Notes under the pieces: model-generated
What the model was told of the DNA's origin: nothing
The model's input: only the letters and a program-made list of their open reading frames with translations
Database searches by the model: none
Shown: in pieces, positions 5,100 to 30,449 of the stretch
Layout of the letters: each line of letters starts with the position of its first letter
Position numbering within the stretch: the first letter of the stretch is position 1
Origin: a virus
Reading direction: 5' to 3' (one strand)
Virus record (IMG/VR): IMGVR_UViG_3300021959_000236
Coordinates: 1-30,755 of that record
DNA: 30,755 nucleotides
Program-made: the position numbers and the translations under genes

Positions 5100-6257
5100 T
5101 CAAAATATCCAATCAACTGGTGCAAAGTTGATGGTGTACGAATAAAGCGGTTCACCACCAAGTTGAACAAATGTAGCGTTAGCAACGCTTCCTTTGATGC
5201 CTGTGTACTTTCTGTTATTTTCAGTGAAAGTTGTACCCGCTGGTTTTGCATTGTTAGCAGTTTTGTCTATTGTTTCTCTCATGCCGCCAGTAGGCATGTA
5301 AAACAACGATTCGTTTGAGTTTACATTGGATGAAAATGGGATTTGAATAGCAATGATATAATCTCCATACTTTAAATTACTGCTTGAAATAGATTCAAAC
5401 TCAAGTTTTCCTTTCAAGATTTTTTCAAGGTTATTGGATATACCATGTATGCTCCCTCCGCCTATTGAAGCACCACCGCCACCATTGTTGCTGTTGTTCA
5501 GCACCGCAAACAATTCAGCCACTTTATCACCAGCACTTTTATTGCTTACGGCTGAAGAACTACGACCTCCCGAATACTGTGTGTGGTAAGGCTTTTGAAC
5601 ACCAAGACCGGGCGGGTATGAAGGGAAAGAAATGGTTTCATTGTTCCCGTTTTGTCCTTTGTTTACATTTGTTAATTCCACCGCAGTGCTTGTTGCACCA
5701 TCAATGGGTGAATTGATTTGATTTGCTGTTAATTCAAATGTACTGGTATAAGTGGTTACAAGCGTAACAAGGCTCGCCGCAATGTCCGATGCGCTCCTTG
5801 CAGAAGAATTATCATGGATAGTAATGTAATAACGCCCACCGTCAAGTCCTTCATTTGATAATGAGTTTTTAACCAGCCATATTTCATAACTGTTGTTGAT
5901 TTTGATAGAATAATCAGCATCAGCAGTTACACCATCCGCCATTCCATTTACGAGGTATGCGGCGTAAAAGTTCCAACGAAATGCTGAATCAGCAGGCAAT
6001 CCTGCTATGCGAGAAAAATCAATTACTGCACTGGCTTCTCGTTGTAATTCCCCAATGTTCAACAAATCATCATCTGTCATTACACCCTCAATAGTGATAA
6101 GAGATTTTGGAAGATTGAGGTCAAAAGCAAAACGGGAACCGCCAGCAAAGGGCACAGAAAGAGGTGAAACGCCCCTGTCCACATTCATGGTGAGGGTGGT
6201 GGCCATCAACTCAATGATGCCGCCATCATTGCGTACAAGACGGATTGGTGTACCCAT
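5100..6257 (-). CDS. Putative distal tail / baseplate protein
   Basis: A 385-residue protein whose ATG overlaps the tape-measure stop (ATGGG over TGA), with GGCGG upstream. The N-terminal 70 residues (TPIRLVRNDGGIIELMATT, then a short beta-rich stretch ending in LITIEGVMTDDD) resemble the opening of phage distal-tail or baseplate hub proteins, but this is a pattern judgement and no family was confirmed. The middle (about 200-275) is a Ser/Asn/Gly-rich low-complexity linker including an NNGGGGASIGGGS patch. The C-terminal 100 residues return to beta-type sequence ending in YSYTINFAPVDWIF. Its position between tape measure and fibre supports a tail-tip role. It could equally be a generic baseplate protein. 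Confidence 0.5.
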   Translation of the reverse strand: MGTPIRLVRNDGGIIELMATTLTMNVDRGVSPLSVPFAGGSRFAFDLNLPKSLITIEGVMTDDDLLNIGELQREASAVIDFSRIAGLPADSAFRWNFYAAYLVNGMADGVTADADYSIKINNSYEIWLVKNSLSNEGLDGGRYYITIHDNSSARSASDIAASLVTLVTTYTSTFELTANQINSPIDGATSTAVELTNVNKGQNGNNETISFPSYPPGLGVQKPYHTQYSGGRSSSAVSNKSAGDKVAELFAVLNNSNNGGGGASIGGGSIHGISNNLEKILKGKLEFESISSSNLKYGDYIIAIQIPFSSNVNSNESLFYMPTGGMRETIDKTANNAKPAGTTFTENNRKYTGIKGSVANATFVQLGGEPLYSYTINFAPVDWIF

Positions 6258-7480
6258 CAGTACCGCCCCCTCATGGTGGTGCCGCCGATGTTGCGGGCCA
6301 TCTCTTGCTGAATCATGTTGCCAATCTCACGAGCAAGGGCACGCTTGTCCGTGCGGTCGGTGATGCCGCTGGCATTGACTGTGATGTTGAAAGTGTTACC
6401 TTGTCCTCCAAAGCCCATCTCACCGGCTTTTTCAAGTGGCACTACTGCTTCTCTACCCGAAGCGTTGTCACCCAAAAGAGCAAGTGTAGGGCCATTTACA
6501 ATACCACCCTTAGCCAGTGCGGGAATACTCCAATTAGACAAATCCAACCCTACATTCCAATCATCACCGAAAGGATTGGGGATGGTTTTGGTGAACTTAA
6601 TATTTGCGAAAAGGTTGTTGATAGACTCAATTAAAGTGTTAATCGGGGCTTTAAGATAACCACCAATGGTTGTTCCAACATCACTAAAAGCGGTGCTCAT
6701 AGTGCTTACAATACCCGAAAAATCCCAATCAAAGATACCACCCTCGCCAAAGTAATAGTCAAAGGTAAGCCAATCGGGAAGTGTAAATGAGAAAATACTT
6801 GCCCAGTTGATGTCCCAATCAAAAATACCGCCTTCACCGAAGTAGTAGTCAAGGGTAAGCCAGTCGGGGAGGGTGAACGAAAACAGGTCACTCCACGAAA
6901 TGTTCCAATCAAAGACTCCGCCTTCACCAAAGTAATAGTCCAGCGTCATCCAATCGGGTAATGTGAAAGAAAAGATTGACCCCCAATCAATATCCCAGTT
7001 AAACACACCACCTTCGCCAAAATAATGGTCGTAGGTCAGTTCATCCGGCAGGTCAAAGTCAAACCACCCATCCCAGTCAAAGTCCCAATCAAAGACACCA
7101 CCCTCACCAAACCAGTGGTCGTAGGTCAATTCGTCGGGCAGTGTGAAGGAAAAGAGGCTATTCCAATTGATGTCCCAATCAAATACCCCACCTTCTCCAA
7201 ACCAGTAATCCCATGTGAGTTCTTCGGGCAGGTCGGGTAGGCTATCCCAAAGTTCACCAATTTTTGTTTTAATTGATTCCCACGCCTCATTAGCCTTTTC
7301 TTTGATGGACTCCCACGATAACTCGTCAATCTTGTCCTTAATCGGTTGAATCACATTGTCGTTGAACCACTTTGCCAAGTCTTTGAGTGCTTCAATCGCC
7401 ATCTGTCCAGCCGCTTTGAAACCGGGGCCAATCTGCGACACCATGCTGGACATGGAGGAAATCATGGAAATTAGCGACAT
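6257..7480 (-). CDS. Tail tape measure protein with six 30-residue repeats
   Basis: 407 residues, start ATG 7480 with GGGAGTGA upstream. The N-terminus (1-80) is helical and amphipathic (MISSMSSMVSQIGPGFKAAG). Residues 84-263 are six tandem 30-residue units with consensus LPDxLTxDYYFGEGGVFDWD followed by an aromatic tail. Residues about 325-407 show a typical tape-measure C-terminus: ALAKGGIVNGPTLALLGD, then GREAVVPLEK, then FNITVNASG and a basic helix. It follows the tail assembly chaperone pair, as in lambda-like tails. Tape measures set tail length and occupy the tube lumen; at roughly 0.15 nm per residue this one would imply a short tail of around 60 nm (inference). No lysozyme or peptidase domain is visible. 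Confidence 0.8.
   Translation of the reverse strand: MSLISMISSMSSMVSQIGPGFKAAGQMAIEALKDLAKWFNDNVIQPIKDKIDELSWESIKEKANEAWESIKTKIGELWDSLPDLPEELTWDYWFGEGGVFDWDINWNSLFSFTLPDELTYDHWFGEGGVFDWDFDWDGWFDFDLPDELTYDHYFGEGGVFNWDIDWGSIFSFTLPDWMTLDYYFGEGGVFDWNISWSDLFSFTLPDWLTLDYYFGEGGIFDWDINWASIFSFTLPDWLTFDYYFGEGGIFDWDFSGIVSTMSTAFSDVGTTIGGYLKAPINTLIESINNLFANIKFTKTIPNPFGDDWNVGLDLSNWSIPALAKGGIVNGPTLALLGDNASGREAVVPLEKAGEMGFGGQGNTFNITVNASGITDRTDKRALAREIGNMIQQEMARNIGGTTMRGRY
6692..7231 (-). repeat. Six tandem 90-bp repeats within the tape measure gene
   Basis: Six contiguous 90-base units encode residues 84-263 of the tape measure. Each starts LP[DE] and carries FGEGG[VI]F[DN]W at a fixed place; the last unit keeps the first half and diverges after DWDFSG. 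Third-position differences between units show the array is old or selected at protein level, not a recent slippage product. There are no spacers. Confidence 0.9.
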
Positions 7481-15284: not shown

Positions 15285-16385
15285 TCACTTGAGGTCACGG
15301 ATGGAACCATGACCGCCGAAGAAAGTCGTCCATAGTTCACCCATGGTACGGTACATTCCCTCTTGGCCGAGGCGGTTGATGGCGAATGGGTCGCCAGTTT
15401 CAATACCGCTCTCAAAGTATTGGGTTGGAATTGCAGTGCTGAAATACAGGTAGTCCGTGTCAAGGAAGTACATGCGGCTCAAAGTGTCGGTTTGAACATC
15501 CTTTGAGGGGATGATTGGAACACCGTTGTAGGTAGCCACGATGAAACCAGCCTCAATACCGGGAACACCTTTCACACCGTTGTAAGTAGGCGTAACACGC
15601 TTCTCTTCCATGAATCGCTGTTGCGATTGGAGGAGTTGCTGAAGGCGCATGAGCGTGTCGTACCCCGTAAGGATGACCTTGGGGTTACCACCACGAGTCC
15701 AAGTCTTTTGGAACAAGTCGTCCAATTGGTCAAGGGACAAGTTGCGGTCGGTACCACTGTTTTGGTTGTGCTCAGCCAACGACCACGAGTTTGCACTGCG
15801 GTCAATGGAGTACATGTCCTCATCAGTGGAGGCGGAGGCACCAACAGTAACACGGTCAAGGGACTCAAAGTTGTTACCAGCGGCGGTAGCCTTGTCGGTG
15901 GTCAGCATTTTGTTGATGTGCTCAGCGTGGTGCTTACCCATTTCTTCCTTCAAGATTGCACGGATGTCGCCCAGTCCATCGTCCTTGTCGGACAAGAACA
16001 TGGCTGTTTCGCTCATGTCAAAGGTGTGCACGACAGTCTTTGGCTTGGCGGCGATGTGCTGGAAGGTTGGCTTGGTGGTGTCGGGGAGCGTAGCGTTCTC
16101 AGCCACACCGCCACCAACAGTGAAGGAGGGGCGAGCCGTGATAACACGCCAGCCGCTTCGTTCCCAAGGTCGCTTTGGAAGGATGGAGAAGGCGTTGAAC
16201 TCTTGGTTCAACTGGCTCCAAACTTTGCGTCCATAAATCGCTTGGTAAGTACCAGCGGTCGTGGATAGCATTGGAGCGTCAGCCTTGAGCAACTCGCTAC
16301 CGGAGTAGGAGTAACCCATTGCGTTGCCTGCGCCATAGTAGTAGCGTTCCATGTCAGTAATGTTTCGGATGTAATCTCTTGCCAT
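15285..16385 (-). CDS. Major capsid protein, HK97 fold
   Basis: 366 residues, ATG 16385 with GAGGTGA 7 bases upstream. The order is N-arm (1-55, aromatic and Gly-rich), then VWSQLNQEFNAFSILPKRPW (about 55-74) leading into the E-loop and spine-helix region, a helix with HAEHINKMLTTD, a P/A-domain part with NPKVILTGYDTLMRLQQLLQ, and a beta end (VATYNGVPIIPSKDV, then RMYFLDTDYLYFSTA). Size and pattern fit HK97-type capsid subunits. It lies directly after the prohead protease/scaffold gene, the usual order. The N-arm is not separated by a long delta domain; scaffolding is supplied by the preceding gene. Confidence 0.85.
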   Translation of the reverse strand: MARDYIRNITDMERYYYGAGNAMGYSYSGSELLKADAPMLSTTAGTYQAIYGRKVWSQLNQEFNAFSILPKRPWERSGWRVITARPSFTVGGGVAENATLPDTTKPTFQHIAAKPKTVVHTFDMSETAMFLSDKDDGLGDIRAILKEEMGKHHAEHINKMLTTDKATAAGNNFESLDRVTVGASASTDEDMYSIDRSANSWSLAEHNQNSGTDRNLSLDQLDDLFQKTWTRGGNPKVILTGYDTLMRLQQLLQSQQRFMEEKRVTPTYNGVKGVPGIEAGFIVATYNGVPIIPSKDVQTDTLSRMYFLDTDYLYFSTAIPTQYFESGIETGDPFAINRLGQEGMYRTMGELWTTFFGGHGSIRDLK

Positions 16386-16408: not shown

Positions 16409-17254
16409 TCACTCTCCACGCAAAGTGCGTTGTGCGAGGGCGTGGACTTCATCCCACCCCATGTTTGCCAAGTCTTGCGTTGAGGGAATGTTGACGGAGG
16501 AAGCCGACTTTTTAATGGTCGTACCTGCTCCTGCGCCGATGTTGTCAATGCGCTCGGAAAGTGCCTCAATGGACTTCACGATTTCCGACAAAGGTGCTCG
16601 TGCGTCAAAGGCGGCTTTCTCAGCCTCAGCCTTTGCAACTCGCATCTCGTTGTTGAAACGAGCGGAGAAGTTGCCTTCAAGGTCGTTGCGGAAGTGTTGT
16701 TCCAAAGCGGCGGCTTTGTACACTTCGTAAGCGGCTTCAAGGTCAGCCTCACTCACATTGTCGGAGTTGAGGTAACCCTTAGCCATAGAGACAGGGCCGA
16801 GAGCACCAGCAGGGGTTCTACCGCCGCTGGAAGTGATAGCACTGATTGCACCCGTGGAAGGAGAACCGTTCTCCTGTCCTCGGCCACGGACTTGACCAGC
16901 GAAGTAGTCAGCACCGTCCACGGCATCGGGGTTGTCAAATCCACCAAGTTGAGCCTTTTCAAGAGCATCAAAGTGGTTTCGTGCGGCCAAGGTGTCCACG
17001 CCAGCCGACTTGAGGGTGTTTTCCATCCAACTCAAGTATTCTGCCGAGATAACATCGCTGTATTCGTCGTTGCTCTTTTCCATTTCATCATCCTCTTCTT
17101 TGGATTCTTTTTTGTCTTTCTTTTCATCGCCGCCTTCTTTCTTATCGGACATTGCTTCACGGAGTTGAGGAGGAAGTTCTCCCTTCTCCATAGCGTCCAA
17201 TCGTGCTTCAAGGCGTGACATAATTTCGCTCAAATCGCTGTTTTCTTCAGTCAT
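16409..17254 (-). CDS. Nested scaffold protein from an internal start
   Basis: An in-frame ATG at 17254 (codon 173 of the protease-scaffold gene) is preceded by AAAGGAGGAC with 8 bases between GGAGG and ATG, one of the best ribosome-binding sites in the window. It would yield a 281-residue scaffold beginning MTEENSDLSEIM without the protease domain. This mirrors lambda, where scaffold Nu3 is translated within the protease gene C. It explains how excess scaffold over protease could be made from one gene. Expression is inferred from sequence only. Confidence 0.75.
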   Translation of the reverse strand: MTEENSDLSEIMSRLEARLDAMEKGELPPQLREAMSDKKEGGDEKKDKKESKEEDDEMEKSNDEYSDVISAEYLSWMENTLKSAGVDTLAARNHFDALEKAQLGGFDNPDAVDGADYFAGQVRGRGQENGSPSTGAISAITSSGGRTPAGALGPVSMAKGYLNSDNVSEADLEAAYEVYKAAALEQHFRNDLEGNFSARFNNEMRVAKAEAEKAAFDARAPLSEIVKSIEALSERIDNIGAGAGTTIKKSASSVNIPSTQDLANMGWDEVHALAQRTLRGE

Positions 17255-17770
17255 GTTTGTGTCCTCCTTTAAAATGCGAAATTGTGCTTCGGGGTTAATG
17301 CCCTTTTCACAAATCGTCACCTCATGCAATTCCATTTTTGAAATCTCTTGGTAGTCGCCTTTTTCCATGTCGGACTTTCGCACTCGCTTGAATGCTTGTC
17401 CTCCAATGGAAAATCCACGAAGGTTTCCCTTGCGGATTTCAGCGGCTACTTCACGAGCCTTCTCAATGTCACTGCGGAGTTTTACTACAACGAACATACC
17501 TGTGTCATCCACTTCGGATTTCCACATTCGTCCGTTTGAATCAATGTACGAGTCAATGACTTCACCAACTTGAATGTTGGAATGAGCCAACTGCACATTG
17601 CGGTACTTTTCACCCTTCATGAAACCATCAAAGGCATCTTTTAGGGCGGAGCGAGTAATAAGGTCACCTTGTTTATCAACAAGTTCAACCGATGCGTAAC
17701 CAGCAACAACCAAATCGTTACCACTCTTGAGGAGAGTGATACCGTCAGTAGGTCGTTGAATGCTCAGCAT
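16409..17770 (-). CDS. Prohead maturation protease (S78-type) fused to scaffold
   Basis: 453 residues from ATG 17770. A GTG at 17806 would add 12 residues but would place the TATATATA box inside the coding region. Residues 1-165 match the HK97 prohead protease family: VVAGYASVELVDKQGDLIT (21-39), His63 in AHSN, Ser121 in GFSIGG, and ELHEVTICEKG at about 148-157, supporting the catalytic His and Ser. Residues 173-453 are scaffold-like: a coiled-coil start (LSEIMSRLEARLDAMEKG), a Lys/Glu/Asp-rich stretch, an Ala-rich helical region, and an end containing MGWDEVHALA. The protease matures the procapsid and normally degrades the scaffold. The scaffold also has its own internal start (17254). Confidence 0.85.
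   Translation of the reverse strand: MLSIQRPTDGITLLKSGNDLVVAGYASVELVDKQGDLITRSALKDAFDGFMKGEKYRNVQLAHSNIQVGEVIDSYIDSNGRMWKSEVDDTGMFVVVKLRSDIEKAREVAAEIRKGNLRGFSIGGQAFKRVRKSDMEKGDYQEISKMELHEVTICEKGINPEAQFRILKEDTNMTEENSDLSEIMSRLEARLDAMEKGELPPQLREAMSDKKEGGDEKKDKKESKEEDDEMEKSNDEYSDVISAEYLSWMENTLKSAGVDTLAARNHFDALEKAQLGGFDNPDAVDGADYFAGQVRGRGQENGSPSTGAISAITSSGGRTPAGALGPVSMAKGYLNSDNVSEADLEAAYEVYKAAALEQHFRNDLEGNFSARFNNEMRVAKAEAEKAAFDARAPLSEIVKSIEALSERIDNIGAGAGTTIKKSASSVNIPSTQDLANMGWDEVHALAQRTLRGE
17261..17270 (-). promoter_or_regulatory. Internal Shine-Dalgarno for nested scaffold
   Basis: Minus-strand AAAGGAGGAC lies inside the protease-scaffold coding region at the junction of the two domains, 8 bases from an in-frame ATG. 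Chance occurrence exactly at a domain boundary in the correct frame is unlikely. Confidence 0.8.
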
Positions 17771-17794
17771 TAAACATCCGACTTTCTGTTGTAG

Positions 17795-17802
17795 TATATA
17801 TA
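17795..17802 (-). promoter_or_regulatory. TATA-box promoter candidate before the protease/capsid genes
   Basis: TATATATA sits in the 39-base gap between the giant gene's TAG (17810-17812) and ATG 17770. Its centre is about 28 bases before the ATG, the spacing expected for an archaeal TATA box driving a leaderless transcript; only a weak GGATG precedes this ATG, unlike most genes here. A bacterial reading (TATATA as -10 with a TTGCTA about 19 bases upstream) is possible but less well spaced. It would let protease, scaffold and capsid genes be expressed separately from the upstream head genes. Confidence 0.55.
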
Positions 17803-17809
17803 CCACACG

Positions 17810-20800
17810 CTATTGCCGAGATAGCAAAGGTTGGTCATTATCGTATTCTATAGAGAGATTTTCACCTTCATCTGTTTGGACTTGAATGTGATTCAGTCGC
17901 TCTTTTTTCTTTTCTTTTCTTTCATCGGTGTTTTTCTTTTCACCATCAAAATCTGGAAGAGTGGCCTCATCACGCAATTGAGTTGGGCCACGAGGTGATT
18001 CTTGCGGCGTACCGACATCAATACCCAACCCCTTTGGCCCTGTCCAAGTCATCTTTTCTTTGGCGATTTTGTCCAAAGCCCGTGTAATCAGTTCCAAAGC
18101 CTTCTTCGTTTGGTTGGGCTTAAGCAAGCGGTTTTCATCATCATCATCAATGATGCCCGCACTGCCTTCTTCCATTTCTTCTTCCGTTGGCTTCTTTGGC
18201 ATATCTACTTCTACCTTCTTTGCCACATACCCTTTTACCATTAACGGAGCCACTGCCGACCAAAAAGGCATGAGACTTTCAGCCAGCACTACAGGATAAT
18301 CGGTTTTGGTAATACCGCTCATTGCACTCTTAGGAGAGTGAACATACCAAACATCGCCAATTTCTTCCATCTTGTACATTACTGTATCAACTTCGTTTAA
18401 CAGGATTTCAATATGACTCTCGTGGATTTGAATATCGTGAGGTACAAGAATTGGTGCAAATGATTTTGTCATAAGGTCAAGTGATTCGGTACTGGCGGCA
18501 CCCTCACCCTCTCCTTCACCTTCTAATTCTTTGACCTGTACATTATACACAGGGCGGTTGCTACGGTTCTTTTTGGAAATACCCGTGATGGATGCACGAA
18601 CAATGTCACCAACTTTGAACACTTTGCTTTGATTGTGGGCTGTGCCTACATCCATGTAATGTTCCCCTTTGTATTCCACTGCTCGGTTTCCAAGCCCTTC
18701 AATTTCAAGGATAGGGCCAGCACCCAATTGATAAGTGAACGGCCCAGTGCCTCTTCGGTCAAGAACGATGAAATTGAAGTCTCGGCTGTCACGGTACACA
18801 ATCCATTTTGGATGCCTACGCTCTCCACGCATGTAAGTGGACTTGTTATCACGCAACAAGATGTTATCATGGTCATTTTTGAGGTTCTTCACAGCGTCAA
18901 CCAGTCCTTCATCATCGGTCATGCGAGTATCATGTGGGCCGGGAACAATAACATGCTCTTGACTATCAAATTGCGAGCGAAGGATTTTCAAGCGTTCAAA
19001 CAGTTGCATTTCTCCCACATTGGTATCATCGTAGTTGATAATGTCAATAATGTTTAATTCATCTTCACCAAGAATACCGTCAAGTGTGTAATTCTTGTCA
19101 CTCATTTTGTCAAGAGCCTCTTTGGTAGCCTTGCGTAATCCTTTCTTTCTCCCATTTTCATCATACGCTGTGATTTCATCACCACTGCGAACAATGATGA
19201 TACGCTGTCCATCATACCATTTGCTTACAACCCATGACCCGCTGAAACCACGAAGGTGTTCAAGGTCGGCCAAATCAAAAATGCGGTGCATGGGGCGAAC
19301 TGCTGGACTCCACTTTGCATCGTCACTCTTGGACAATAACACATCGGGGTCAAGCAGGGAGGTAATCAGTTCGGTCATTTCGCTGGTTGCTATTGTAGTC
19401 ATGTTTTCACTGGCCACTTCTCCTGTTTCCATATTCATGCTTTGATGGGGGTTATTGGGGTACAACGGTGGAGGAGCATTAGCGTACACAAAGTCCGACA
19501 CATCTTTTCCATGAACCACTTGTGTGAGTTCTTCGGGTACACTATGATACAGACCCGGCCCTACATGGCTACCAACATGGATGTTGCCTTCACTGTCAAA
19601 CTCAGCACCAAGAGTGGGAGTCAATTCATACCCATGATGCCATGCACCGCTGTCAAAGTTATCGGTAATCGCCGTATTAACAGGACTCGCCGCTCCTACA
19701 GGTCGTTGACCAAAGCCTGCGGTTTCGGAAATATCTTCACCTGCTGTAAAAATACCCTCTTCATCATCCAATGCACGAGGGTCAAAATGCACGATGGTGT
19801 CAAGATTGTTTTTTGTGGTGCTTGTACTGCGGGCCTTTGTAGCACTTCCAGTTCCTTTTGAGTCGTGAATATCACCGCTAATGCTCCCAATACCAGCCGA
19901 AAGCATAGACATTTCAAACTGTGCAGGGTTAAGCATCATATTCATGTAACGAGGAATAGCGTGAGAATGATGTCCTTTCCATTCACTTTGCCCGCTTGCT
20001 TCTTGTTGAAAATGATTCAATGCTTGATGATAACCCTTTTCTCGTGCATGACGGAAGAAGCGTTCTTCATCGTTTAGTTCTTCTTCGGGCTTGTTCATCA
20101 ATTCTTCATCGCTAAACTGCTTGAGATTGATGCCGTCAATGTTAGGGATTTTACCACTGAGCAGTATATCTTTCACCGTGGATGCAAACAACGGCGTATT
20201 CATTTTTGAAGATAAGTTGATGAGTTCTGTTGCCTTTTCTTTTGCTACAGGAGTCTTTTCAACACCAAGAATCTTTAGCACTTCATCAACAGACATGTTG
20301 CTGTCAATCATTTTACCATCAGTAGATAGATGTTTGCCAAGTGTTTTGTGGAATGGATTTTGCACACCTTGTGAGGTGGCTTTTACCGATTTATCACTAC
20401 CATAATTAAGAGTAGTTAAACCGTGTACTGAATGAGGAACAGACGCAATGTATCGTTGAGCGTCACGCATCAATTGATGGTGGTTTGCAATGAAAGTAGC
20501 AGGGTCGTTGGGGTCAAACGCATTTGGGTCATGCTCAAGATATTTTGGAAGAATAATGTCCCGTGCTACTTGTGCAACAGTTTGGCGATGTCCTTTGTGA
20601 AGTTGCTCAAGTCGCCTTTGGTCTATTTCCCAATGTGTTGTTGGTTTTTTGATAGCCGCTTGCGCCTGTAATTGTTCTAATCGTTGAGTTGCTTGTCGTA
20701 ATTGTTCTCTCATTGGAAGAAGTTCTTCAAACGGAGTACCAGCAACTTGCTCTTCCATTAACCGTTCATTGAGCATTTCCACTTCTTCAAGCAGTTCATC

Positions 20801-23527
20801 TTCTTTTTGAGATGCAGGCAACATACCACCAAATTGCAAAAAGCGTGCTACAGCGTCAGCCTCACCAGCCGCTATTGTGGTTTTTGTCTTTTGATTTTTC
20901 TTGGCTGTTTGAATCTCTTGATTCATGTTTTGAATCACAGTGTCAATCCCATCGTTTAATTTTGTTTTATCAAACTCTCCAAGTTGCCTGTCTAACAAAA
21001 TCTTGTTTAACTCATCGTGATTTTCTTCGTTGTGCAGGTAGTCCAAAATAGCCTTTGGATTTTGTGTTCCAAGAATCTTTGATGCGTTGGTAATTGCCAT
21101 CATTGCATGATTCATTGAAGGGTTATCAAGAACACGGTTTTTCATTGAATCAAAAGAAAAACCGCTTTGTCCACCCCAACGCATGAAATCTTTGAACTCT
21201 TCACGAGTCGTTCCACCACTGGCCGACTCATCGCCACGCATCCAATCCTCAGCACTGGAAAATGATTTTTTTGCTGGTGTATTGGGGTGAAACATGCGCC
21301 CACCAAGCGTTTCCATGTTATGTGCAAGAATGGCATTAACATGACTACGAGAATCGGATGGTGATGCTCCGTAGGCCGTGTAGCCCCCAACATGCTGTGT
21401 AGGTACCACTGTGTGTGGAAACGCCATGCTTCGCAAAAACTTACCTACAAACTTATTTTTTAACTCGTTTTCCGAAAGATGTCTTATGTTGTATTCGTAT
21501 TGTGGATTGAGAGATGATTTGTGTTCAGTGTAGTTGTTTTTATTGGTGGCCCCTTCTGTGTTTGGGTGTTTCTTTGATGTACCAAACGGTGACAACAGGT
21601 TTTGCAAGTGTTCTGCACTTGAGTTGTAATTAAACTTGACATACTTTCCATCTTGTGTTGCTTCCCCTATGCTTTGCAATCGTAGAGGCATGAAATGATG
21701 AGCAAGCGTTCTGTTTAGTTCACTTGGTTGAATGTAATTGTCTCGGCTTTCTGTTAATTCATTAAACGGCGATACACCTTCTTCGTTAGCGTGTGTAGCG
21801 TTCAAGATTTCGTGGTATGTAGCAAGATTAGTTCCAGCACCACCTGTACTTTGAAATGGCGAAGCCCAAAAATGACCCGGCCCATATGTAAATCCATTTT
21901 CATGTTCTTGCCAGTATTTGGGTTTTTCTTCATCGGGATGTGGGCCGTGTGGTGAGGTGAAAAAAGCACGATGATTACGAATGTCTTTGATTTGACGATG
22001 CAATGAAGATTGTGTTTTTGCAACCGCTTCTATGTAATCAATCATACCAGCATCTACAATTGGTTCCTCTAACTTACCGTACAATGGATGGTCAGTAAGC
22101 AACTCTCGTGTTTTAGGGTCATAGCCAGCCAAATATAACAAGTCATCTTTGGACATTCTTACCTTTTCCAGTCCTCGCTCTTTACCCTTGAAATGAATAC
22201 GGGAAGCATCAAACAATTCATCATACGACATTTCTTTCATTGGTTCTTTGTGAATGTTAAGGCGAGGCAAATACTTCATTCGCTTATCAGCCCCGTAATT
22301 GTCCCGTATGGCTTCTTGAATGTGGCTGGCAATTGACTTATTATCAAACTCATCTAAAGGCTCGTGAGAAAGACGACCCAACGCTTGTTGAAGGAACATA
22401 CCTTCTTCACCTTTGGTGTAATCGTTATCGTTGTTTTCTTGATGGTAATGAGCGTTACGACCCATCATGGTCATAGGGCGAATAGCCCAGTTCATTTCGG
22501 GTGTCATTCGCATAAGAGCGTTGTACTTAAGGCGAGCAGAAGGAAACTTTTCACCGTTAGGCAGGGTAATCAAATCATGCTTGTCAAGCCCTTTTTCGTC
22601 AATGTGATTGACAATAGCACTGCGTTCTTCGGGACTGAACCACTCAAGGCCAAGCATGTAGCCGAGATGTCCAAGTCGGGTTGGGTGTTCCTCGTATTTG
22701 TCATCCAGCACCATGTTGTTATCTTCATCAGCCTCCCACATAGCGGCTCGGTCAGCAAAGTGTTCTTTGCGAAGTTGCTCTTTCATTTCAGCATTGGTCA
22801 TACCTTCAGCCAACAACTCCTCTTGCCGTTTATTGTTTTGCTTTAACCATCGGAAATAATCTCGCTCGTACAGGTCATGTTGATGATGAAGAAGTGTACC
22901 GTTTGGTCGGGTATCACCAATGATATTGACCTTTTTTCCTTCTCCTTGTTGAAACCCACCAACCAACGGATGTTTCTTACCAAGCGTATCAAAGAATTGT
23001 TTTTCCATTTCCTTTTCTTTTTCACTGTGGCCACCTAATGCCCAATTGCGTAGCATCTCCACATAAGCAGGTGTGCCCGTCACGGCGTTGGTACGAAGAA
23101 GAGGGTGGTTCACTTCATGGAAGGGAAAATGGTGGCGTTGGTATGGATGAGCACCGTCTTTGGGTTGATAATACGGCCACACCGCATGTCGGTTTTTAGG
23201 ATTAGTAGGGGATTGAAGGCCGTCTTTCCATACATGGTTGGTCGGCTCGCCGTGCGTGTGTTGCAAAGCAAACATGTAACCGATACCTTCGGGAAAATGG
23301 TAGTCCTTTTCCACATCAACACTGCTTTCTTCTTCTGCTTTAAGCACCATTTCAGCCGTTGCTTTCAACGACTTGAACAGCGGCTCAGTGGGAAGCGTGT
23401 GAAGGTTTTCAAACGCAAGAATGTATTCAGCCGCCGCAGTGCGAAGGTCAAGACCATCGTTCAATGATTTTAGCAACTCGTTGCTACACACATAGAAGTG
23501 GTCATCCATGTCCTCACCGCCAATCAT
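17810..23527 (-). CDS. Giant head-region protein with degenerate DNA-ligase-like domain
   Basis: 1905 residues; ATG 23527 overlaps the previous stop (ATGA), and an ATG at codon 7 has GGTGAGG just upstream. Residues 1 to about 1400 are largely unrecognised, His-, Asn- and Met-rich, with a coiled coil near 880-960. Residues about 1425-1580 resemble an ATP-dependent DNA ligase adenylation domain: motif I-like KWYDGQR (Lys1436, Asp1439, Gly1440, Arg1442), motif III-like YTLDGIL (1480-1486), motif IIIa-like LNIIDIINYD with LFERLKIL, motif IV/V-like NILLRDNKSTYMRGERR and KWIVYR. An OB-fold-like stretch follows (about 1580-1668), then an EGEGEGEG linker and an acidic/basic tail. Canonical motif I is KxDGxR; here Lys is one residue further away, and the motif IV and V lysines are replaced, so ligation activity is doubtful. 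Position between portal and protease suggests an internal virion protein. Confidence 0.7.
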   Translation of the reverse strand: MIGGEDMDDHFYVCSNELLKSLNDGLDLRTAAAEYILAFENLHTLPTEPLFKSLKATAEMVLKAEEESSVDVEKDYHFPEGIGYMFALQHTHGEPTNHVWKDGLQSPTNPKNRHAVWPYYQPKDGAHPYQRHHFPFHEVNHPLLRTNAVTGTPAYVEMLRNWALGGHSEKEKEMEKQFFDTLGKKHPLVGGFQQGEGKKVNIIGDTRPNGTLLHHQHDLYERDYFRWLKQNNKRQEELLAEGMTNAEMKEQLRKEHFADRAAMWEADEDNNMVLDDKYEEHPTRLGHLGYMLGLEWFSPEERSAIVNHIDEKGLDKHDLITLPNGEKFPSARLKYNALMRMTPEMNWAIRPMTMMGRNAHYHQENNDNDYTKGEEGMFLQQALGRLSHEPLDEFDNKSIASHIQEAIRDNYGADKRMKYLPRLNIHKEPMKEMSYDELFDASRIHFKGKERGLEKVRMSKDDLLYLAGYDPKTRELLTDHPLYGKLEEPIVDAGMIDYIEAVAKTQSSLHRQIKDIRNHRAFFTSPHGPHPDEEKPKYWQEHENGFTYGPGHFWASPFQSTGGAGTNLATYHEILNATHANEEGVSPFNELTESRDNYIQPSELNRTLAHHFMPLRLQSIGEATQDGKYVKFNYNSSAEHLQNLLSPFGTSKKHPNTEGATNKNNYTEHKSSLNPQYEYNIRHLSENELKNKFVGKFLRSMAFPHTVVPTQHVGGYTAYGASPSDSRSHVNAILAHNMETLGGRMFHPNTPAKKSFSSAEDWMRGDESASGGTTREEFKDFMRWGGQSGFSFDSMKNRVLDNPSMNHAMMAITNASKILGTQNPKAILDYLHNEENHDELNKILLDRQLGEFDKTKLNDGIDTVIQNMNQEIQTAKKNQKTKTTIAAGEADAVARFLQFGGMLPASQKEDELLEEVEMLNERLMEEQVAGTPFEELLPMREQLRQATQRLEQLQAQAAIKKPTTHWEIDQRRLEQLHKGHRQTVAQVARDIILPKYLEHDPNAFDPNDPATFIANHHQLMRDAQRYIASVPHSVHGLTTLNYGSDKSVKATSQGVQNPFHKTLGKHLSTDGKMIDSNMSVDEVLKILGVEKTPVAKEKATELINLSSKMNTPLFASTVKDILLSGKIPNIDGINLKQFSDEELMNKPEEELNDEERFFRHAREKGYHQALNHFQQEASGQSEWKGHHSHAIPRYMNMMLNPAQFEMSMLSAGIGSISGDIHDSKGTGSATKARSTSTTKNNLDTIVHFDPRALDDEEGIFTAGEDISETAGFGQRPVGAASPVNTAITDNFDSGAWHHGYELTPTLGAEFDSEGNIHVGSHVGPGLYHSVPEELTQVVHGKDVSDFVYANAPPPLYPNNPHQSMNMETGEVASENMTTIATSEMTELITSLLDPDVLLSKSDDAKWSPAVRPMHRIFDLADLEHLRGFSGSWVVSKWYDGQRIIIVRSGDEITAYDENGRKKGLRKATKEALDKMSDKNYTLDGILGEDELNIIDIINYDDTNVGEMQLFERLKILRSQFDSQEHVIVPGPHDTRMTDDEGLVDAVKNLKNDHDNILLRDNKSTYMRGERRHPKWIVYRDSRDFNFIVLDRRGTGPFTYQLGAGPILEIEGLGNRAVEYKGEHYMDVGTAHNQSKVFKVGDIVRASITGISKKNRSNRPVYNVQVKELEGEGEGEGAASTESLDLMTKSFAPILVPHDIQIHESHIEILLNEVDTVMYKMEEIGDVWYVHSPKSAMSGITKTDYPVVLAESLMPFWSAVAPLMVKGYVAKKVEVDMPKKPTEEEMEEGSAGIIDDDDENRLLKPNQTKKALELITRALDKIAKEKMTWTGPKGLGIDVGTPQESPRGPTQLRDEATLPDFDGEKKNTDERKEKKKERLNHIQVQTDEGENLSIEYDNDQPLLSRQ

Positions 23528-24093
23528 AGCGGCTTAAACTGTGGGCAAGCGTGCAAATCCATACCACCCTCGTGGAGCAAGCACCCTGTTCGCTGAGTGC
23601 CGCCGCAAAGCCCACACATCACTGGTGCGCCACTTTCTCGCATAGCCGCTCTTGGATTCATTTTCTTAACGGGCGACTCACCTTCTTCACGCTCAACGCC
23701 GCTACCCTCGTGAGGGTTCATGCGAGAGCCAAGTTGCTCCATGTTGGTTGCTTCCTTTGGCTTCTTTTTCTTTGGCGCATCCTCAGTCTCAATGGTGCGC
23801 CCGTTGGTGGTGAAGTAACCACTCTTGGTTTGTCCACCCGACTCGGCGTGGAAAGAAGGATTGATGTCCGTGATTTTTTCGGGCTTGAATCCCGGTTCGG
23901 CTTTTTCCATTTTGCCGCCGCAACCCATCTTCATGCAACCCATCTTGTTCATTTTAGAACCGCACTTTGGACAGTCTTTGCACTCACAAGGCTCTTTGCC
24001 GCAATCACACTTGGCCTTTTCAATTCGCTCAAGGCGTTGTTCAAGTTCAATGGCTTTTGCTAAATATCCATTTTCAACTGGGCGGGGTTTCAT
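23524..24093 (-). CDS. Cys-rich zinc-binding protein
   Basis: 189 residues, ATG 24093 with AAAGGAGGC upstream. After an N-terminal helix (LAKAIELEQRLERIEKAKC) comes a dense cluster of cysteines at about 29-58 (CDCGKEPCECKDCPKCGSKM, then more), able to hold two or more zinc ions. A disordered, Lys/Glu/Pro-rich middle follows. A second cluster lies at the C-terminus (VMCGLCGGTQRTGCLLHEGG, then HACPQF). No family was recognised. Tight coupling to the giant gene (ATGA) suggests a partner in the virion or in head assembly. Confidence 0.6.
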   Translation of the reverse strand: MKPRPVENGYLAKAIELEQRLERIEKAKCDCGKEPCECKDCPKCGSKMNKMGCMKMGCGGKMEKAEPGFKPEKITDINPSFHAESGGQTKSGYFTTNGRTIETEDAPKKKKPKEATNMEQLGSRMNPHEGSGVEREEGESPVKKMNPRAAMRESGAPVMCGLCGGTQRTGCLLHEGGMDLHACPQFKPL

Positions 24094-24440: not shown

Positions 24441-24872
24441 TCAAACCTTACGACCGTAGGAACCTGCGCTTCGCTTGTATTGTGGGTTGTGGCGAGAAGA
24501 GGACATAAAACCAAGGCGAGAACCCTCAATGTTGGTCTTTTCAGCAGGTGCTTCCATTTTCAACACAGGAACGCCGCCAGCGAAAATGTCTCGTGGGCCT
24601 TGAGGAGTAACTACATCGGATTTAACAATTTCTTGGTGCAAATCATCAGCCAAAAAGTCACTCAACTTTTGTACTTCCGAAAGATATTGCTTAGCCATAT
24701 GGCCATCACCATTTTCAAGAGCATTAAGAAAAGCCTTGTTTGCTTGTTCCATTTTTCGGGCCATCGGGTGCATTTTCAACAAGTCCATGTTAATCCCTGC
24801 TATGTCTGTCTCATATCGTTCAACTTTAAGAGCGTTACTGCCCACGGGGGCGACGAGCGTTAAGTAGTGCAT
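24441..24872 (-). CDS. Hypothetical protein after portal
   Basis: 143 residues from ATG 24872, overlapping the end of the portal gene by 38 bases. N-terminal short beta segment (MHYLTLVAPVGSNALKVERY), a helical middle with KMEQANKAFLNALENGDGHM and a following helix, and a basic Ser/Arg/Tyr-rich end (HNPQYKRSAGSYGRKV). No motif was recognised. Context suggests a minor head protein. Confidence 0.5.
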   Translation of the reverse strand: MHYLTLVAPVGSNALKVERYETDIAGINMDLLKMHPMARKMEQANKAFLNALENGDGHMAKQYLSEVQKLSDFLADDLHQEIVKSDVVTPQGPRDIFAGGVPVLKMEAPAEKTNIEGSRLGFMSSSRHNPQYKRSAGSYGRKV

Positions 24873-26619
24873 TGCTCAAGTTTTGTTGCATAGAAAGCGG
24901 TGGCCCTCGTTGTTGAACATTGCTAAATGGTGCGCCACTTCCCATACTATTTCGCCGTTCCGGTGCCGCAGGCCCACGGTTTCGCAAACCAATCCCTTGA
25001 CCACCGGGTTGTGGGGGAGGCATAATTTGCTGTGCCAACTGCGGTGGCATTTGTGGCCCTGCTCCCATCATTGGTGGCATACCGCCACCGGGTGGCATAC
25101 CGGGTGGCATACCGGGTGGCATACCGCCACCGGGTGGCATACCGGGTGGCATACCGGGAGGTGCTCCGCCGGGAGGTGCGCCTTGCTGTGGTTGAGGAGG
25201 TGGGGGACGCTTGTAAGTGAAACGGATGTCTCGGTTAGCCGTGTCCTCAATGAGTTCGGGCATAAAGCCCAATTGAGCCATGCGTTGCGCCACATTGAGT
25301 TCTTGTTCATCACGGCGTAGGCGTGTAATTTCATCTTCTTCTTCGTTTGGATAAAGCGTAAGTTTCCAATCATTAACATTCAATTGTTTAAGCATTCGTG
25401 GAAACAAGACTTCAGTGTACACTTTTTGTCCAAACTCTACGGCTCGGTTTGTTACCAGTATTTGCATACCTTCATTGTTGAGTCCACCCGATTTACCGCT
25501 ATCTACCATGAACACTGAAGATACGCCATAAAAAGCGGCCATACGATTTCGTATTTCGTCACGCACCGCAATATACTGCATCTCTTCCAGCGTGTCCATG
25601 AACTTAACCCAATTTACACCACCTCGTCCTGTAGCCGACTCAATACCGACCTTTGGTACATAATGAGGGTCACGCTCCATTTTTTCATCCACAGCCTTCC
25701 AAAAAGACTTCATGGATTCCAAATTATCTGTAGTAACTGATACAATGCCTTTTGGCATTCTTCGTTTTTGATATGCTGTGTAAATGTAATTGTCCATGGC
25801 TGTAAGCGTCATGGCTTGTCGCCACATTGTATTAACAGGCGAGCGACCATACAACTTAGAAGGCATATACTTGCTTAAATGTAATACTTCACCTTCTGCA
25901 AAGTATTGTGTTTTACCACTGCCTGCCATGTTCACATAATGAACATCTTGCAATTCAGCACCACATTGTTCACAAGTTTCATCTTCAGCATGTGTTTTAA
26001 CTTCATCACGATGAATTAAACAAATGCGATAACGGCCACCACGCACACCACGCTTGTCAGCAACAATACGCATAAAAATGGGGTCACCACGCATAATTTC
26101 TTTGACTCGGTAAAATGCTACTTCTTTGCTTTGTGGGTCAATAAAATACTCTTTTACGAGAATTAAAAAAGCGTCATCTACAATGTTGAGGTCACTTTCA
26201 ATTTCATTCATTACATGGAGAAACGATTGTTCCATGCTGTTTTCTTGCTTGAGAAGCCACTTGGGATAAGTCAATTCATCAATATCCGGTTTACGAACTG
26301 AGCCGCCGCACTCAGCACAAGATTCTACTTCACTTTGGTATTCTTCGTCACATACTGTACATTTGCGTGCAAACTTCTTTTCCCAATAATAACCACGGCG
26401 AAACATTTCTTGACGCAATTTTGCAAGCACAGTACGCAAAATCAACGATTCATTGCTTACAGCATAAAGAGCAGGAATGGTGATACCTTGAGCCATAACT
26501 GGCTCTTGAATACCGCTTGTCCAAAGCGGCATAGTAGGAGTAGGTGATTCTTTACGCCGAAATGGACTACCAAGAGCAGAAAGAAAACGAGAGATTCTGC
26601 TGTCATCATCTGCCATCAT
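24835..26619 (-). CDS. Portal protein with zinc-ribbon insertions
   Basis: 594 residues; tandem ATGs at 26619 and 26616 follow GGAGGG, and the second is slightly better spaced. Portal-like features: IPALYAVSNESLILRTVLAKL near 48-68, EVLHLSKYMPSKLYGRSPVN (about 244-263), then MTLTAMDNYIYTAYQKRRMPKG and the GVSSVFMVDSGKSGGLNNEG segment, which matches HK97/SPP1-type portals. Unusual are Cys87, Cys90, Cys101, Cys104 (CxxC-x10-CxxC) and Cys200, His203, Cys216, Cys219, two likely zinc sites inserted in the N-terminal half. The C-terminus (about 468-594) is a Pro/Gly/Met-rich tail with GMPP repeats. The portal forms the dodecameric DNA gate at one capsid vertex. Confidence 0.8.
   Translation of the reverse strand: MMADDDSRISRFLSALGSPFRRKESPTPTMPLWTSGIQEPVMAQGITIPALYAVSNESLILRTVLAKLRQEMFRRGYYWEKKFARKCTVCDEEYQSEVESCAECGGSVRKPDIDELTYPKWLLKQENSMEQSFLHVMNEIESDLNIVDDAFLILVKEYFIDPQSKEVAFYRVKEIMRGDPIFMRIVADKRGVRGGRYRICLIHRDEVKTHAEDETCEQCGAELQDVHYVNMAGSGKTQYFAEGEVLHLSKYMPSKLYGRSPVNTMWRQAMTLTAMDNYIYTAYQKRRMPKGIVSVTTDNLESMKSFWKAVDEKMERDPHYVPKVGIESATGRGGVNWVKFMDTLEEMQYIAVRDEIRNRMAAFYGVSSVFMVDSGKSGGLNNEGMQILVTNRAVEFGQKVYTEVLFPRMLKQLNVNDWKLTLYPNEEEDEITRLRRDEQELNVAQRMAQLGFMPELIEDTANRDIRFTYKRPPPPQPQQGAPPGGAPPGMPPGMPPGGGMPPGMPPGMPPGGGMPPMMGAGPQMPPQLAQQIMPPPQPGGQGIGLRNRGPAAPERRNSMGSGAPFSNVQQRGPPLSMQQNLSNALLNARRPRGQ
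25073..25158 (-). repeat. GMPP-coding repeats in portal C-terminal tail
   Basis: Imperfect 12-base repeats (plus-strand unit GGTGGCATACCG) interspersed with GCCACC, coding for GMPPGMPPGGGMPP-type sequence. They encode a flexible low-complexity tail. Confidence 0.8.
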
Positions 26620-27932
26620 AATCCCTCCGCATATACGCCTATCGTGTCAGCATTGATGCCCCACTTATCAAGAAGAGAAGCGGCTTTGTTTTTATGCTCT
26701 TTCCAATTGTTGTATGTTACCAATTGGTACAATTCTGTTTTTCGCATAGAATCTTTTTCCTCAATGTAATTCAAAACAGCCTTTGCCTGCAACGATTTAA
26801 GTTTAAGATGTGGAAGCACTCCTTTGAGAATATCACGAATGTCGTCCTTTGAAGAAAAAATAAGCCGATGAACAGGTTTGATGGTGTTTTTGGCCAACTT
26901 TTGGTCGGAGACTAAACGCCCACATCCAATCATTTTTTGCAATTCCTCGCAATGTATTTTCCCATTTTCACCGCTGGCTACAATGGTTACACGAGGGTCA
27001 CCACGCTCGGAAATGAAAATGCTTCCATCAGCATCAACAAAACCAGCCGTGTATGCCCAAATATCCTTAACAATGAAACCGTTTGTACCCTTTTTCACAT
27101 ATGTGTGCCGTTCACTTCCTTTGTACACATCTACTTCTTCACCATACATTTTGAGAAGTGAACTCATTTTTCCAGCCGTCATAGATTTGTTAAGGATATT
27201 ATAACCCCTACGCACAATTTCTTGACTTCCTAAAGCACCTTCTACTTCAAGTAATTTTGATGCATATTCAAGTGCGGCTATGTCCGTTTTTTTCAAATTA
27301 TCAATTTGATGTAAGGTATTTTTCCACATTGTTTGAGCATCCTTTTTCATTTCGTTAGCATCAACCCAATTTTGTTGGTCTATAGTGTCCCAATCTAACT
27401 TGTCGTTAAGGTGTTGCAATACAGTAATTGCCTTAAGGTATTGTTGGCAGGCTTTTTGCAAACTGGTACTTCTTGATTCACCAAACTTACGCAATGCTTT
27501 GAGAGAGCGGTCATCAAGACCAATGTTGCGTATAACATCTTCCATACCGTTTGCCCATGTAAGAGATTTGATTGTCAAATCAATTTCCATGGCTTTTACA
27601 CGGCGTATGTCTTTGATGATACCGTCATACTCTTCCCGAAACGCTTTGTCATGTCGGCGCATTTTGCGACACATACGAATAATAGTGTTAGCATCAGTAC
27701 CGTATTTGGTTTCAAACCATCCATCACCATTTACTGAAAATGATGATATATTGTCTTTTACTGATGAATCGTTTTTAACAAAAACAAGTGGCACTTGGTT
27801 AGGTTGAAAATAGGGATGTTGAGCCAAACTTTTCAATACATCGTGGGAAAAGTCGTCTGCAACCTGCAACGGCACATCGTACTCGTCACCGATAAACAGA
27901 CTCCCCCACATAATGACCACTGGATTGACCAC
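26616..27932 (-). CDS. Helical protein fused to a LAGLIDADG endonuclease domain
   Basis: 438 residues from GTG 27932 (AAGGA 8 bases upstream); ATG 27911 is an alternative. Residues 1-285 are mainly helical and charged with no recognised domain (for example GWFETKYGTDANTIIRMCRK near 71-90). Residues about 290-428 look like a LAGLIDADG homing endonuclease: TAGFVDADGSI at 295-305 with Asp300/Asp302 as acidic residues, then RVTIVASGENGKIHCEELQK, a Gly-Cys-Gly turn, and SLQAKAVLNYIEEKDSM. Only one LAGLIDADG motif is seen, so a dimer would be needed for cleavage. No intein splice blocks or C-extein follow. The N-terminal part may be a structural gene invaded by the endonuclease. Confidence 0.7.
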   Translation of the reverse strand: MVNPVVIMWGSLFIGDEYDVPLQVADDFSHDVLKSLAQHPYFQPNQVPLVFVKNDSSVKDNISSFSVNGDGWFETKYGTDANTIIRMCRKMRRHDKAFREEYDGIIKDIRRVKAMEIDLTIKSLTWANGMEDVIRNIGLDDRSLKALRKFGESRSTSLQKACQQYLKAITVLQHLNDKLDWDTIDQQNWVDANEMKKDAQTMWKNTLHQIDNLKKTDIAALEYASKLLEVEGALGSQEIVRRGYNILNKSMTAGKMSSLLKMYGEEVDVYKGSERHTYVKKGTNGFIVKDIWAYTAGFVDADGSIFISERGDPRVTIVASGENGKIHCEELQKMIGCGRLVSDQKLAKNTIKPVHRLIFSSKDDIRDILKGVLPHLKLKSLQAKAVLNYIEEKDSMRKTELYQLVTYNNWKEHKNKAASLLDKWGINADTIGVYAEGL

Positions 27933-28964: not shown

Positions 28965-30449
28965 TCACGGAATCATCCACCCATCAGCAGGATTATCATT
29001 GCGATGAGGTTTGTCACGAAGCCACTCATCAAAACCGGGTAGTAAATCGTCAAGCAGAACTACAGCACCTTTGAACTCCTTAGTGGCCCAATTAGCCAGT
29101 GCAAGTGACATGGCTAAGTCGTCGTGCGTACCCACGCTTTCCAAGCGACCGTTCTTTTGCATACCAAAGCGGTTGAGTTCAGTCTCTAATTTGTGAGTAA
29201 ACTCACGGCTTCGCTTATCGCCGTATGGAGTTTGGATGCGGCCCTGCTCAAAGGCCATCAAGAGAGACATGAACAGGCTTTCCTTGCGTGTGCGTGTTGT
29301 CATAAAAGTCTTGATTGGAATGTCTTGGCGCATTTCAATCAATTCAGCCTCAAACATTCGCTGGAAGTTGTTGCCTTCTAATTCAATAAGTTCGGGCTGA
29401 AAACGGTTATTGAGCATCATGATTTGATTTTTCTGTGCCAGCCCCGACATACCACGCTCGTGTACAATACCAACAACTTGCTTGACATCCTCATTCGGTA
29501 GCATACGCATAACCGTCATAGCGGTAAAGTCAGCGTTCTTGTCCGATGCAATAGCGGTGTCCCACCCAATAAAATGCTGGCCAAACACTCCTATTACTTC
29601 ACCTTCTTCATCATACTCCATTTCAGCCTTATCAATCAACACAAGGTCAGTGTTGCGGGCTTTTTCTAAAATGTTGTGAGGAAACATACTGGCAACATCG
29701 TGAATAGGCTCGCATAGATATTCACGGGAAAATTGGATAGCAGGCATGGTAAGTCTCCGTTGGTCAAGCGATTCTATATCCCATCGCTCCGGCCACAGGG
29801 CTTCACCTTCTTTGTTGATGGCGGGGTATGTCTCCACTTGGAATGTCTCGGTCTGCTCCAACTGCGAATACAAGTCGTTGTACGAAAACGGCGTACCCAC
29901 CATCATAAGACGACCCGAATGGTGAAGAACAGGAAGCAGGACACCGTAAAACCAGTCTGCGGCACGCTGAAGTTCAGTACCCGTTGTACCCCACAGAATG
30001 TCGTCACACAACACAACATTCGGGTGGAAACCACGAGTACCACCACCCACCGACTTAGCCATGATACGGCTACCGTTGCTGAACTCAAAGTAGGTCTTTC
30101 GCCAAGGTCGGCCTTCGGGAATGAGGTAGCGAATGGAAGGCGTGCTCTCAATGTTTTGACGAATAAAACGCATGTGTTCAAGCGTCTGTTCCAACGAGTG
30201 CGAGAAAATCATGATGTGCTTTCCCGGCTGGAAAGCCGCAATCCACAAAGCGTAAGACATGAAGAACACAGACTTGCCATGGTCACGACTTGCTTTCACG
30301 CAGTAATAGCGGTTGTTTGCCAATCCTTCATCCCACGACCTGTGGTGGTTGGAGTAGTCAAAGCCCAAGATTTCCTTGAAGAAGTATTCAAACGACTTTG
30401 CAGACATCTTCCTGTCCATGTCGTGAATAAACTCCTCCATGTCGCTCAC
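28965..30449 (-). CDS. terL: Terminase large subunit
   Basis: 494 residues from GTG 30449; GGGGTGA lies 4-5 bases upstream, favouring GTG over ATG 30440. ATPase domain: Walker A-like ASRDHGKS (53-60), Walker B-like VVLCDD (145-150), and coupling region MVGTPFSYNDL (183-193). RNase H-like nuclease domain: Asp297 in FIGWDTA, Glu356/Glu358 in LIELEGNN, and Asp443/Asp444 in THDDLAMS. Length is normal for TerL. It packages genomic DNA through the portal and cuts it. No small terminase was identified within the window. Confidence 0.9.
   Translation of the reverse strand: MSDMEEFIHDMDRKMSAKSFEYFFKEILGFDYSNHHRSWDEGLANNRYYCVKASRDHGKSVFFMSYALWIAAFQPGKHIMIFSHSLEQTLEHMRFIRQNIESTPSIRYLIPEGRPWRKTYFEFSNGSRIMAKSVGGGTRGFHPNVVLCDDILWGTTGTELQRAADWFYGVLLPVLHHSGRLMMVGTPFSYNDLYSQLEQTETFQVETYPAINKEGEALWPERWDIESLDQRRLTMPAIQFSREYLCEPIHDVASMFPHNILEKARNTDLVLIDKAEMEYDEEGEVIGVFGQHFIGWDTAIASDKNADFTAMTVMRMLPNEDVKQVVGIVHERGMSGLAQKNQIMMLNNRFQPELIELEGNNFQRMFEAELIEMRQDIPIKTFMTTRTRKESLFMSLLMAFEQGRIQTPYGDKRSREFTHKLETELNRFGMQKNGRLESVGTHDDLAMSLALANWATKEFKGAVVLLDDLLPGFDEWLRDKPHRNDNPADGWMIP

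Follow-up and report, generated by a model that had tools for sequence, protein, structure and literature searches.

What does a protein of 1905 residues do between the portal and the prohead protease genes of a tailed virus? This is the question raised by the window analysed here, the whole of a 30.8-kb IMG/VR virus record, in which a single uninterrupted ORF of 1905 codons, counted from the first ATG, occupies positions 17810-23527 of the minus strand. The initial annotation had pointed to this ORF and to its unusual size for the slot, and both observations stand.

The giant ORF and its genomic setting

The main genes of the window all lie on the same (minus) strand, in the order terminase large subunit (28965-30449), a 438-residue nuclease-type gene, portal (24835-26619), three small genes, the giant gene, S78 prohead protease (16409-17806), major capsid protein (MCP; 15285-16385), small head and tail genes, a tail-tube-like gene and a short tape measure gene. 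The terminase and the MCP, the latter of the SU10/HVTV-1 type, were assigned by family matches, the portal by phrog_18178 (E 2.7e-67), the protease by PF04586 (E 4e-10) and the tail-tube-like protein by a weak match (E 2e-4). The family matches of the two neighbours bear out the earlier placement of the giant ORF in the portal-protease slot of the head cluster, where only 4 bases separate its end from the start of the protease ORF. The protease has a long lysine/glutamate-rich C-terminal extension of its own, which may serve as a scaffold.

The 438-residue gene between terminase and portal (26616-27932, minus strand) is kept in relatives; in its C-terminal part, which resembles a PHROG labelled HNH endonuclease (E 3e-8), there is a LAGLIDADG-like FVDADGS motif, and in HVTV-1 a nuclease gene is likewise present in the terminase-portal interval. 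Upstream of the giant gene, a 189-residue protein (23524-24093, minus strand), also kept in relatives and matching no family, has a Cys cluster, CDCGKEPCECKDCPKCG, that suggests zinc binding. Residues of about 83-108 of the portal gave weak zinc-ribbon matches (E 0.002-0.01), and the HVTV-1 portal has paired Cys motifs too. The tape-measure-like protein (6257-7480, minus strand) has merely 407 residues, which suggests a short tail.

Judged by its genes and those of its relatives, the virus is a magrovirus, i.e. a tailed virus of Poseidoniales archaea. An identical giant protein is encoded on a 58.9-kb contig, related records reach 115.6 kb, and a B-family DNA polymerase (PolB) and a chaperonin were each found in 8 of the 10 long related records. 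The MCP is 35-37% identical to that of the haloarchaeal Druskaviridae, and the portal and protease also match HVTV-1. The identification follows from the fit of these features to the published picture of magroviruses, which infect Poseidoniales, have tails and genomes of about 90-118 kb, and are akin to Druskaviridae (PMC10768690, PMC12999244, PMC8651126, PMC7318539). All the defining features of the Magrovirales, namely the archaeal tailed-virus head module, PolB, the chaperonin and the genome size, were found, as judged on the relatives, the window itself being 30.8 kb long.

Scanning in turn with the giant protein, alignments of it and the MCP revealed homologues throughout the magrovirus-type group, 1785-2147 residues long and 27-100% identical. 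The initial annotation had called for a search of marine viral contigs for homologues at the same position, and they were always in the portal-protease slot, hence inside the head cluster and not outside structural genes: among loci with enough flank, the portal was upstream in 89 of 89 and the protease downstream in 97 of 97 (some contigs having been fetched more than once). In the MCP-centred scan the giant ORF occupied the slot of every magrovirus-type contig that covers it, down to 27% identity, the divergent clades at 27-40% identity included. The haloarchaeal contigs of that scan were without this giant ORF, and neither the 84,980 prokaryote genomes scanned nor the annotated phage collection yielded a relative of the giant protein. 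Because the homologues are syntenic and 1785-2147 residues long, and because dN/dS is low, we take the giant ORF to be a genuine gene and no chance ORF.

The first ATG of the ORF overlaps the stop codon of the gene before it in the sequence ATGA. In several relatives (L004, L011 and L039), a stop codon stands immediately 5' of the codon for residue 7, so the likelier start is probably M7, at window position 23509, which would give a protein of 1899 residues. The composition had been described as His/Asn/Met-rich. This is true of His, which makes up 4.7% of the giant protein and 1.9% of the other window proteins, but not of Asn (5.7 vs 5.3%) or Met (3.5 vs 3.3%).

Body and ligase-like module of the giant protein

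The N-terminal body (residues 7-904; 20816-23509, minus strand) is mostly helical and His-rich. It is followed by long helices, in AF2 models a probable coiled coil (residues 905-960; 20648-20815, minus strand), and by a middle region (residues 961-1384; 19376-20647, minus strand) modelled mostly at pLDDT 70-90. The AF2 tile of residues 7-962 reached pLDDT 79 and pTM 0.67; it matched only helical bundles or coils in the PDB and nothing in BFVD at E<=0.001, although the lack of a structural match does not establish that the fold is new. No Pfam family was common to more than 3 of 43 members in the N-terminal body (best E 0.016), and none was common to relatives in the middle region. The MuF family (PF04233) matched neither the window protein nor its aligned relatives, and MuF was not detected in most magrovirus records searched. 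We took as chance the heme-oxygenase-type matches obtained with the N-terminal profile (E 0.17-0.8), a weak peptidase PHROG match in one relative (L223, E 0.008) and a 13-bit MuF match inside a coil of another (L250). The earlier description of the protein as mostly unlike any family therefore holds for about 70% of its length, residues 1-1380 having no match to a known family or fold, and needs amending for the C-terminal ~300 residues, since these form a DNA-ligase core.

This core, at residues of about 1385-1690, is the best conserved part of the giant protein and consists of a nucleotidyltransferase-like and an OB domain. The nucleotidyltransferase domain (residues 1385-1590; 18758-19375, minus strand) was recognised through PF01068 (DNA_ligase_A_M) and PDB 4eq5. 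PF01068 was matched individually by 43 of 43 diverse relatives, and its curated cut-off was exceeded in many relatives' records; the window protein itself scored 21 bits (E 3e-4), under the curated 26.2 bits. Among solved structures the best sequence match was 4eq5, an archaeal DNA ligase (E 0.045). Direct profile alignment to a pair of true viral ligases placed motifs III-V in the expected register, yet the match was not significant (E 0.029, probability 2%).

In the AF2 model of residues 905-1905, the nucleotidyltransferase part was poor (pLDDT mostly 25-65) and residues 1579-1690 were better. For the C-terminal tile, Foldseek returned no PDB match at E<=0.001, so that the ligase signal comes from a second look at the Foldseek matches with VIA-align, and from sequence. 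That second look identified the OB-fold domain (residues 1591-1690; 18458-18757, minus strand): for residues 1579-1690, DNA ligases of archaea and human took ranks 1-29 with Z of 6.6-7.7, and while a Z near 7 is by itself weak, the match is persuasive because of the uniform identity of the matches and the independent sequence match of the neighbouring domain. Against BFVD, the C-terminal tile had a single match, an uncharacterised viral protein of 827 residues (A0A516LT18, E 4e-10). The giant protein thus has the nucleotidyltransferase-then-OB architecture of ATP-dependent DNA ligases, except in one divergent clade (L228, L229, L246, L254 and L261), which has lost the OB domain. The C-terminal tail (residues 1691-1905; 17813-18457, minus strand) has conserved SAGI and LGID...ESPRGPT...LPDFD segments; when SAGI and ESPRGPT were weighed as S78 protease sites, no matching site was found in any other window protein. 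Similarity to a known replication protein does not extend along the full length, but is confined to the C-terminal part, where the catalytic residues are missing.

Ligases need the lysine of motif I (KxDGxR), which carries the AMP (PMC4609770). At the corresponding position the giant protein reads SKWYDGQR (19202-19225, minus strand), with W1437 in place of the canonical lysine. Among 81 distinct domain sequences this residue is W in 65, Q in 5, Y in 5, H in 4 and M in 1, with one gap, and it is never K in the 80 that are readable; the true ligases used for comparison have KLDG (L276) and KFDG (L277). A lysine adjoining the proper motif I place, K1436, occurs in 65 of the 81 sequences and is absent from the divergent clades. 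In the motif IV-V stretch, HDNILLRDNKSTYMRGERRHPKWIVYR (18791-18871, minus strand), the Glu is variable and the Lys is replaced: across the distinct domain sequences the motif IV position is a mixture of D, E, K, G, P, S, Q, N and R, the first Lys of motif V is L, V, M or I in all, and the second is mostly R, otherwise A, Q or T, and once K. Motif VI (RxDK) is variable among minimal ligases. Conservation is complete or nearly so at the G and R of motif I, in the STY segment and in HPKW. To judge from these residues, the ligase module of the giant protein is CATALYTICALLY dead.

The dN/dS values indicate that this pseudo-ligase module is under selection and not decaying, since they are lowest in the ligase-like part. 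In sixteen close pairs, dN/dS was 0.00-0.07 in residues 1383-1590, which together with the OB part mostly had the lowest values of six regions; across the ligase-like part it ranged from near 0 to 0.13, whereas most values for the N-terminal and middle regions lay in the range 0.03-0.3. The loss of the adenylation residues and the strong selection, taken together, suggest that the module probably serves for binding rather than catalysis. The net charge of the ligase-like domain is -10, and so acidic a domain does not favour tight DNA binding. An enzyme fold reused for binding is seen in the cap-binding domain of Snurportin-1, a nucleotidyltransferase-like fold without catalysis; its biology is different, and the weak Snurportin-1 Pfam matches in 4 of 43 giant-protein members (E about 0.05) are at chance level.

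Compared with ATP-dependent DNA ligases (PF01068 plus OB; archaeal 4eq5 and 6wbo), the giant protein shares motifs III-V, the surroundings of motif I, the domain order and the best structural matches. It differs from them in lacking the motif I and motif V lysines, in its variable motif IV Glu, in the clade without OB, and in having the module fused to a body of ~1380 residues among head genes.

The published replication ligase of magroviruses

Published lists of magrovirus replication genes include an ATP-dependent DNA ligase (PMC10768690, PMC12999244), which is reported from almost all magrovirus vOTUs (PMC10160649), and in one published magrovirus the "ATP-dependent DNA ligase gene" and the gene for the prohead protease lie together on a stretch of 678 bp (PMC7318539). 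Since the two share this stretch, and the giant ORF ends immediately before the protease ORF, the ligase reported for that genome is probably the giant protein, an identification made by synteny.

It could then be argued that the giant protein serves the viral replisome as its ATP-dependent DNA ligase and merely lies among late genes. Besides these published assignments, such a reading has on its side a real kinship with ligases, seen in PF01068, 4eq5 and the structural matches of the OB domain, and the scarcity of other candidates in most long records: PF01068 was not found outside the giant protein in 28 of the 29 magrovirus records searched (many of them incomplete), and the PF01653 (NAD-dependent) and PF09414 (RNA ligase) families had no match in the nine records tested. 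It is set against the absence of the AMP-accepting lysine from 80 of 80 distinct readable sequences, the loss of the motif IV and V residues and the lack of an OB domain in one clade. Moreover, the exceptional record, G021 (the L254 record, 102 kb), has a separate canonical KFDG ligase in another gene beside its giant protein; this is a stand-alone ATP-dependent ligase (L277, 1222-2358). We consider the replisome reading very unlikely, and the giant protein is probably not a replisome ligase. The statement that magroviruses carry their own replication ligase probably needs correcting, because the only ligase-like sequence in most sampled clades is a catalytically stripped module. Magroviruses, among the most abundant viruses of the ocean, may instead depend on the host ligase.

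The portal-protease slot and the role of the giant protein

The interpretation that we favour, by a little more than even confidence, is that the giant protein is a late structural protein of magroviruses, in which a large body is joined to a dead ligase core acting as a binding module, with a role in the head or at the portal and with possible ejection; its gene position, conservation, kinship with ligases, loss of catalytic motifs and selection are seen in the sequences, and its location in the virion, binding, cleavage and ejection are what we infer. The initial annotation had likewise made it a candidate inner-capsid or ejection protein. The protein would be expressed alongside the head genes and incorporated into the prohead at the portal or close to it, where the dead ligase core would hold either DNA, the motif I Arg being kept, or a conserved head partner. 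The body might be trimmed by the S78 protease, and might enter the cell with the genome. The giant protein is probably part of the virus particle, and if it is, an enzyme fold has apparently been reused in a virion context. Large head proteins that are packaged or ejected, carry enzyme domains and are encoded near head-maturation genes include T4 Alt, the N4 virion RNA polymerase and the ejection proteins of SPN3US. Their likeness to the giant protein is one of logic only, with no sequence link, and the magrovirus side is known from genes.

A possible, though less probable, account is that the protein is purely structural, a minor-head, portal-vertex or scaffold/core protein that is kept in the head or digested out of it, with nothing ejected. 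The gene order portal-giant-protease-MCP, the constant size of 1785-2147 residues and the long predicted helices would all suit such a protein. However, the lysine/glutamate-rich extension of the protease may, on its sequence, already provide a scaffold, and the enzyme-derived domain, together with the enzymes found in the same slot of relatives (zeta, ART and a true ligase), suggests more than scaffolding.

The Druskaviridae (HVTV-1, HCTV-1 and HCTV-5) have homologous portal, protease and MCP genes and likewise have a very large protein of several domains in the interval. Between its portal and protease genes, HVTV-1 encodes a 1048-residue protein, a MuF-like protein and a 1313-residue protein that combines zeta-toxin kinase with ADP-ribosyltransferase domains, besides small genes. 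The interval differs from that of the window in that a MuF-like protein, gp114, is detected and in that gp115 has zeta/ART domains instead of a ligase; no homology was found between gp115 and the giant protein. By analogy with packaged ADP-ribosyltransferases or zeta kinases, the module of the giant protein could have a new chemistry or bind nucleotides non-covalently, and the protein could be an ejected effector. The contents of the HVTV-1 slot and the near invariance of the motif I G and R, STY and HPKW agree with this, but no new conserved Lys or Cys/His/Asp set is present in all clades at the old active site, and we regard an effector of this kind as quite unlikely.

A druskavirus-like contig, L204, whose MCP is 64% identical to that of HVTV-1, has an intact 493-residue ATP-dependent DNA ligase with KLDG between a MuF-bearing ORF and the protease (L204 3059-4537; L276 877-2355). 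This ligase has the fold and the slot of the giant protein's module in common with it; it differs in its canonical KLDG, in being a stand-alone gene and in belonging to a haloarchaeal-type virus, and the likeness to the giant protein is one of position only. Going by these sequences, either enzyme-type domains would have entered the slot repeatedly, or the magrovirus module would descend from an L204-like ligase. An extended version of our favoured interpretation, which we think rather unlikely, is that a virion-borne pseudo-ligase is present across the whole order, accompanies the genome and, in packaging or entry, takes hold of DNA ends or nicks, having descended from an active ligase of the slot as in the druskavirus-like relative.

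The portal-protease slot of archaeal tailed viruses thus hosts differing enzyme-type domains, namely a zeta kinase, an ADP-ribosyltransferase, an active ligase and a dead one, and the idea of such a slot is testable in cultivable haloarchaeal viruses. In the haloarchaeal interval a motif, VYVDSPDEAPEGVQVQQG.GG.WY, recurs at L024 8539-12480 and 12473-12934 (HVTV-1 gp115 and gp116) and at L204 6865-7569, and is possibly a packaging or anchoring tag.
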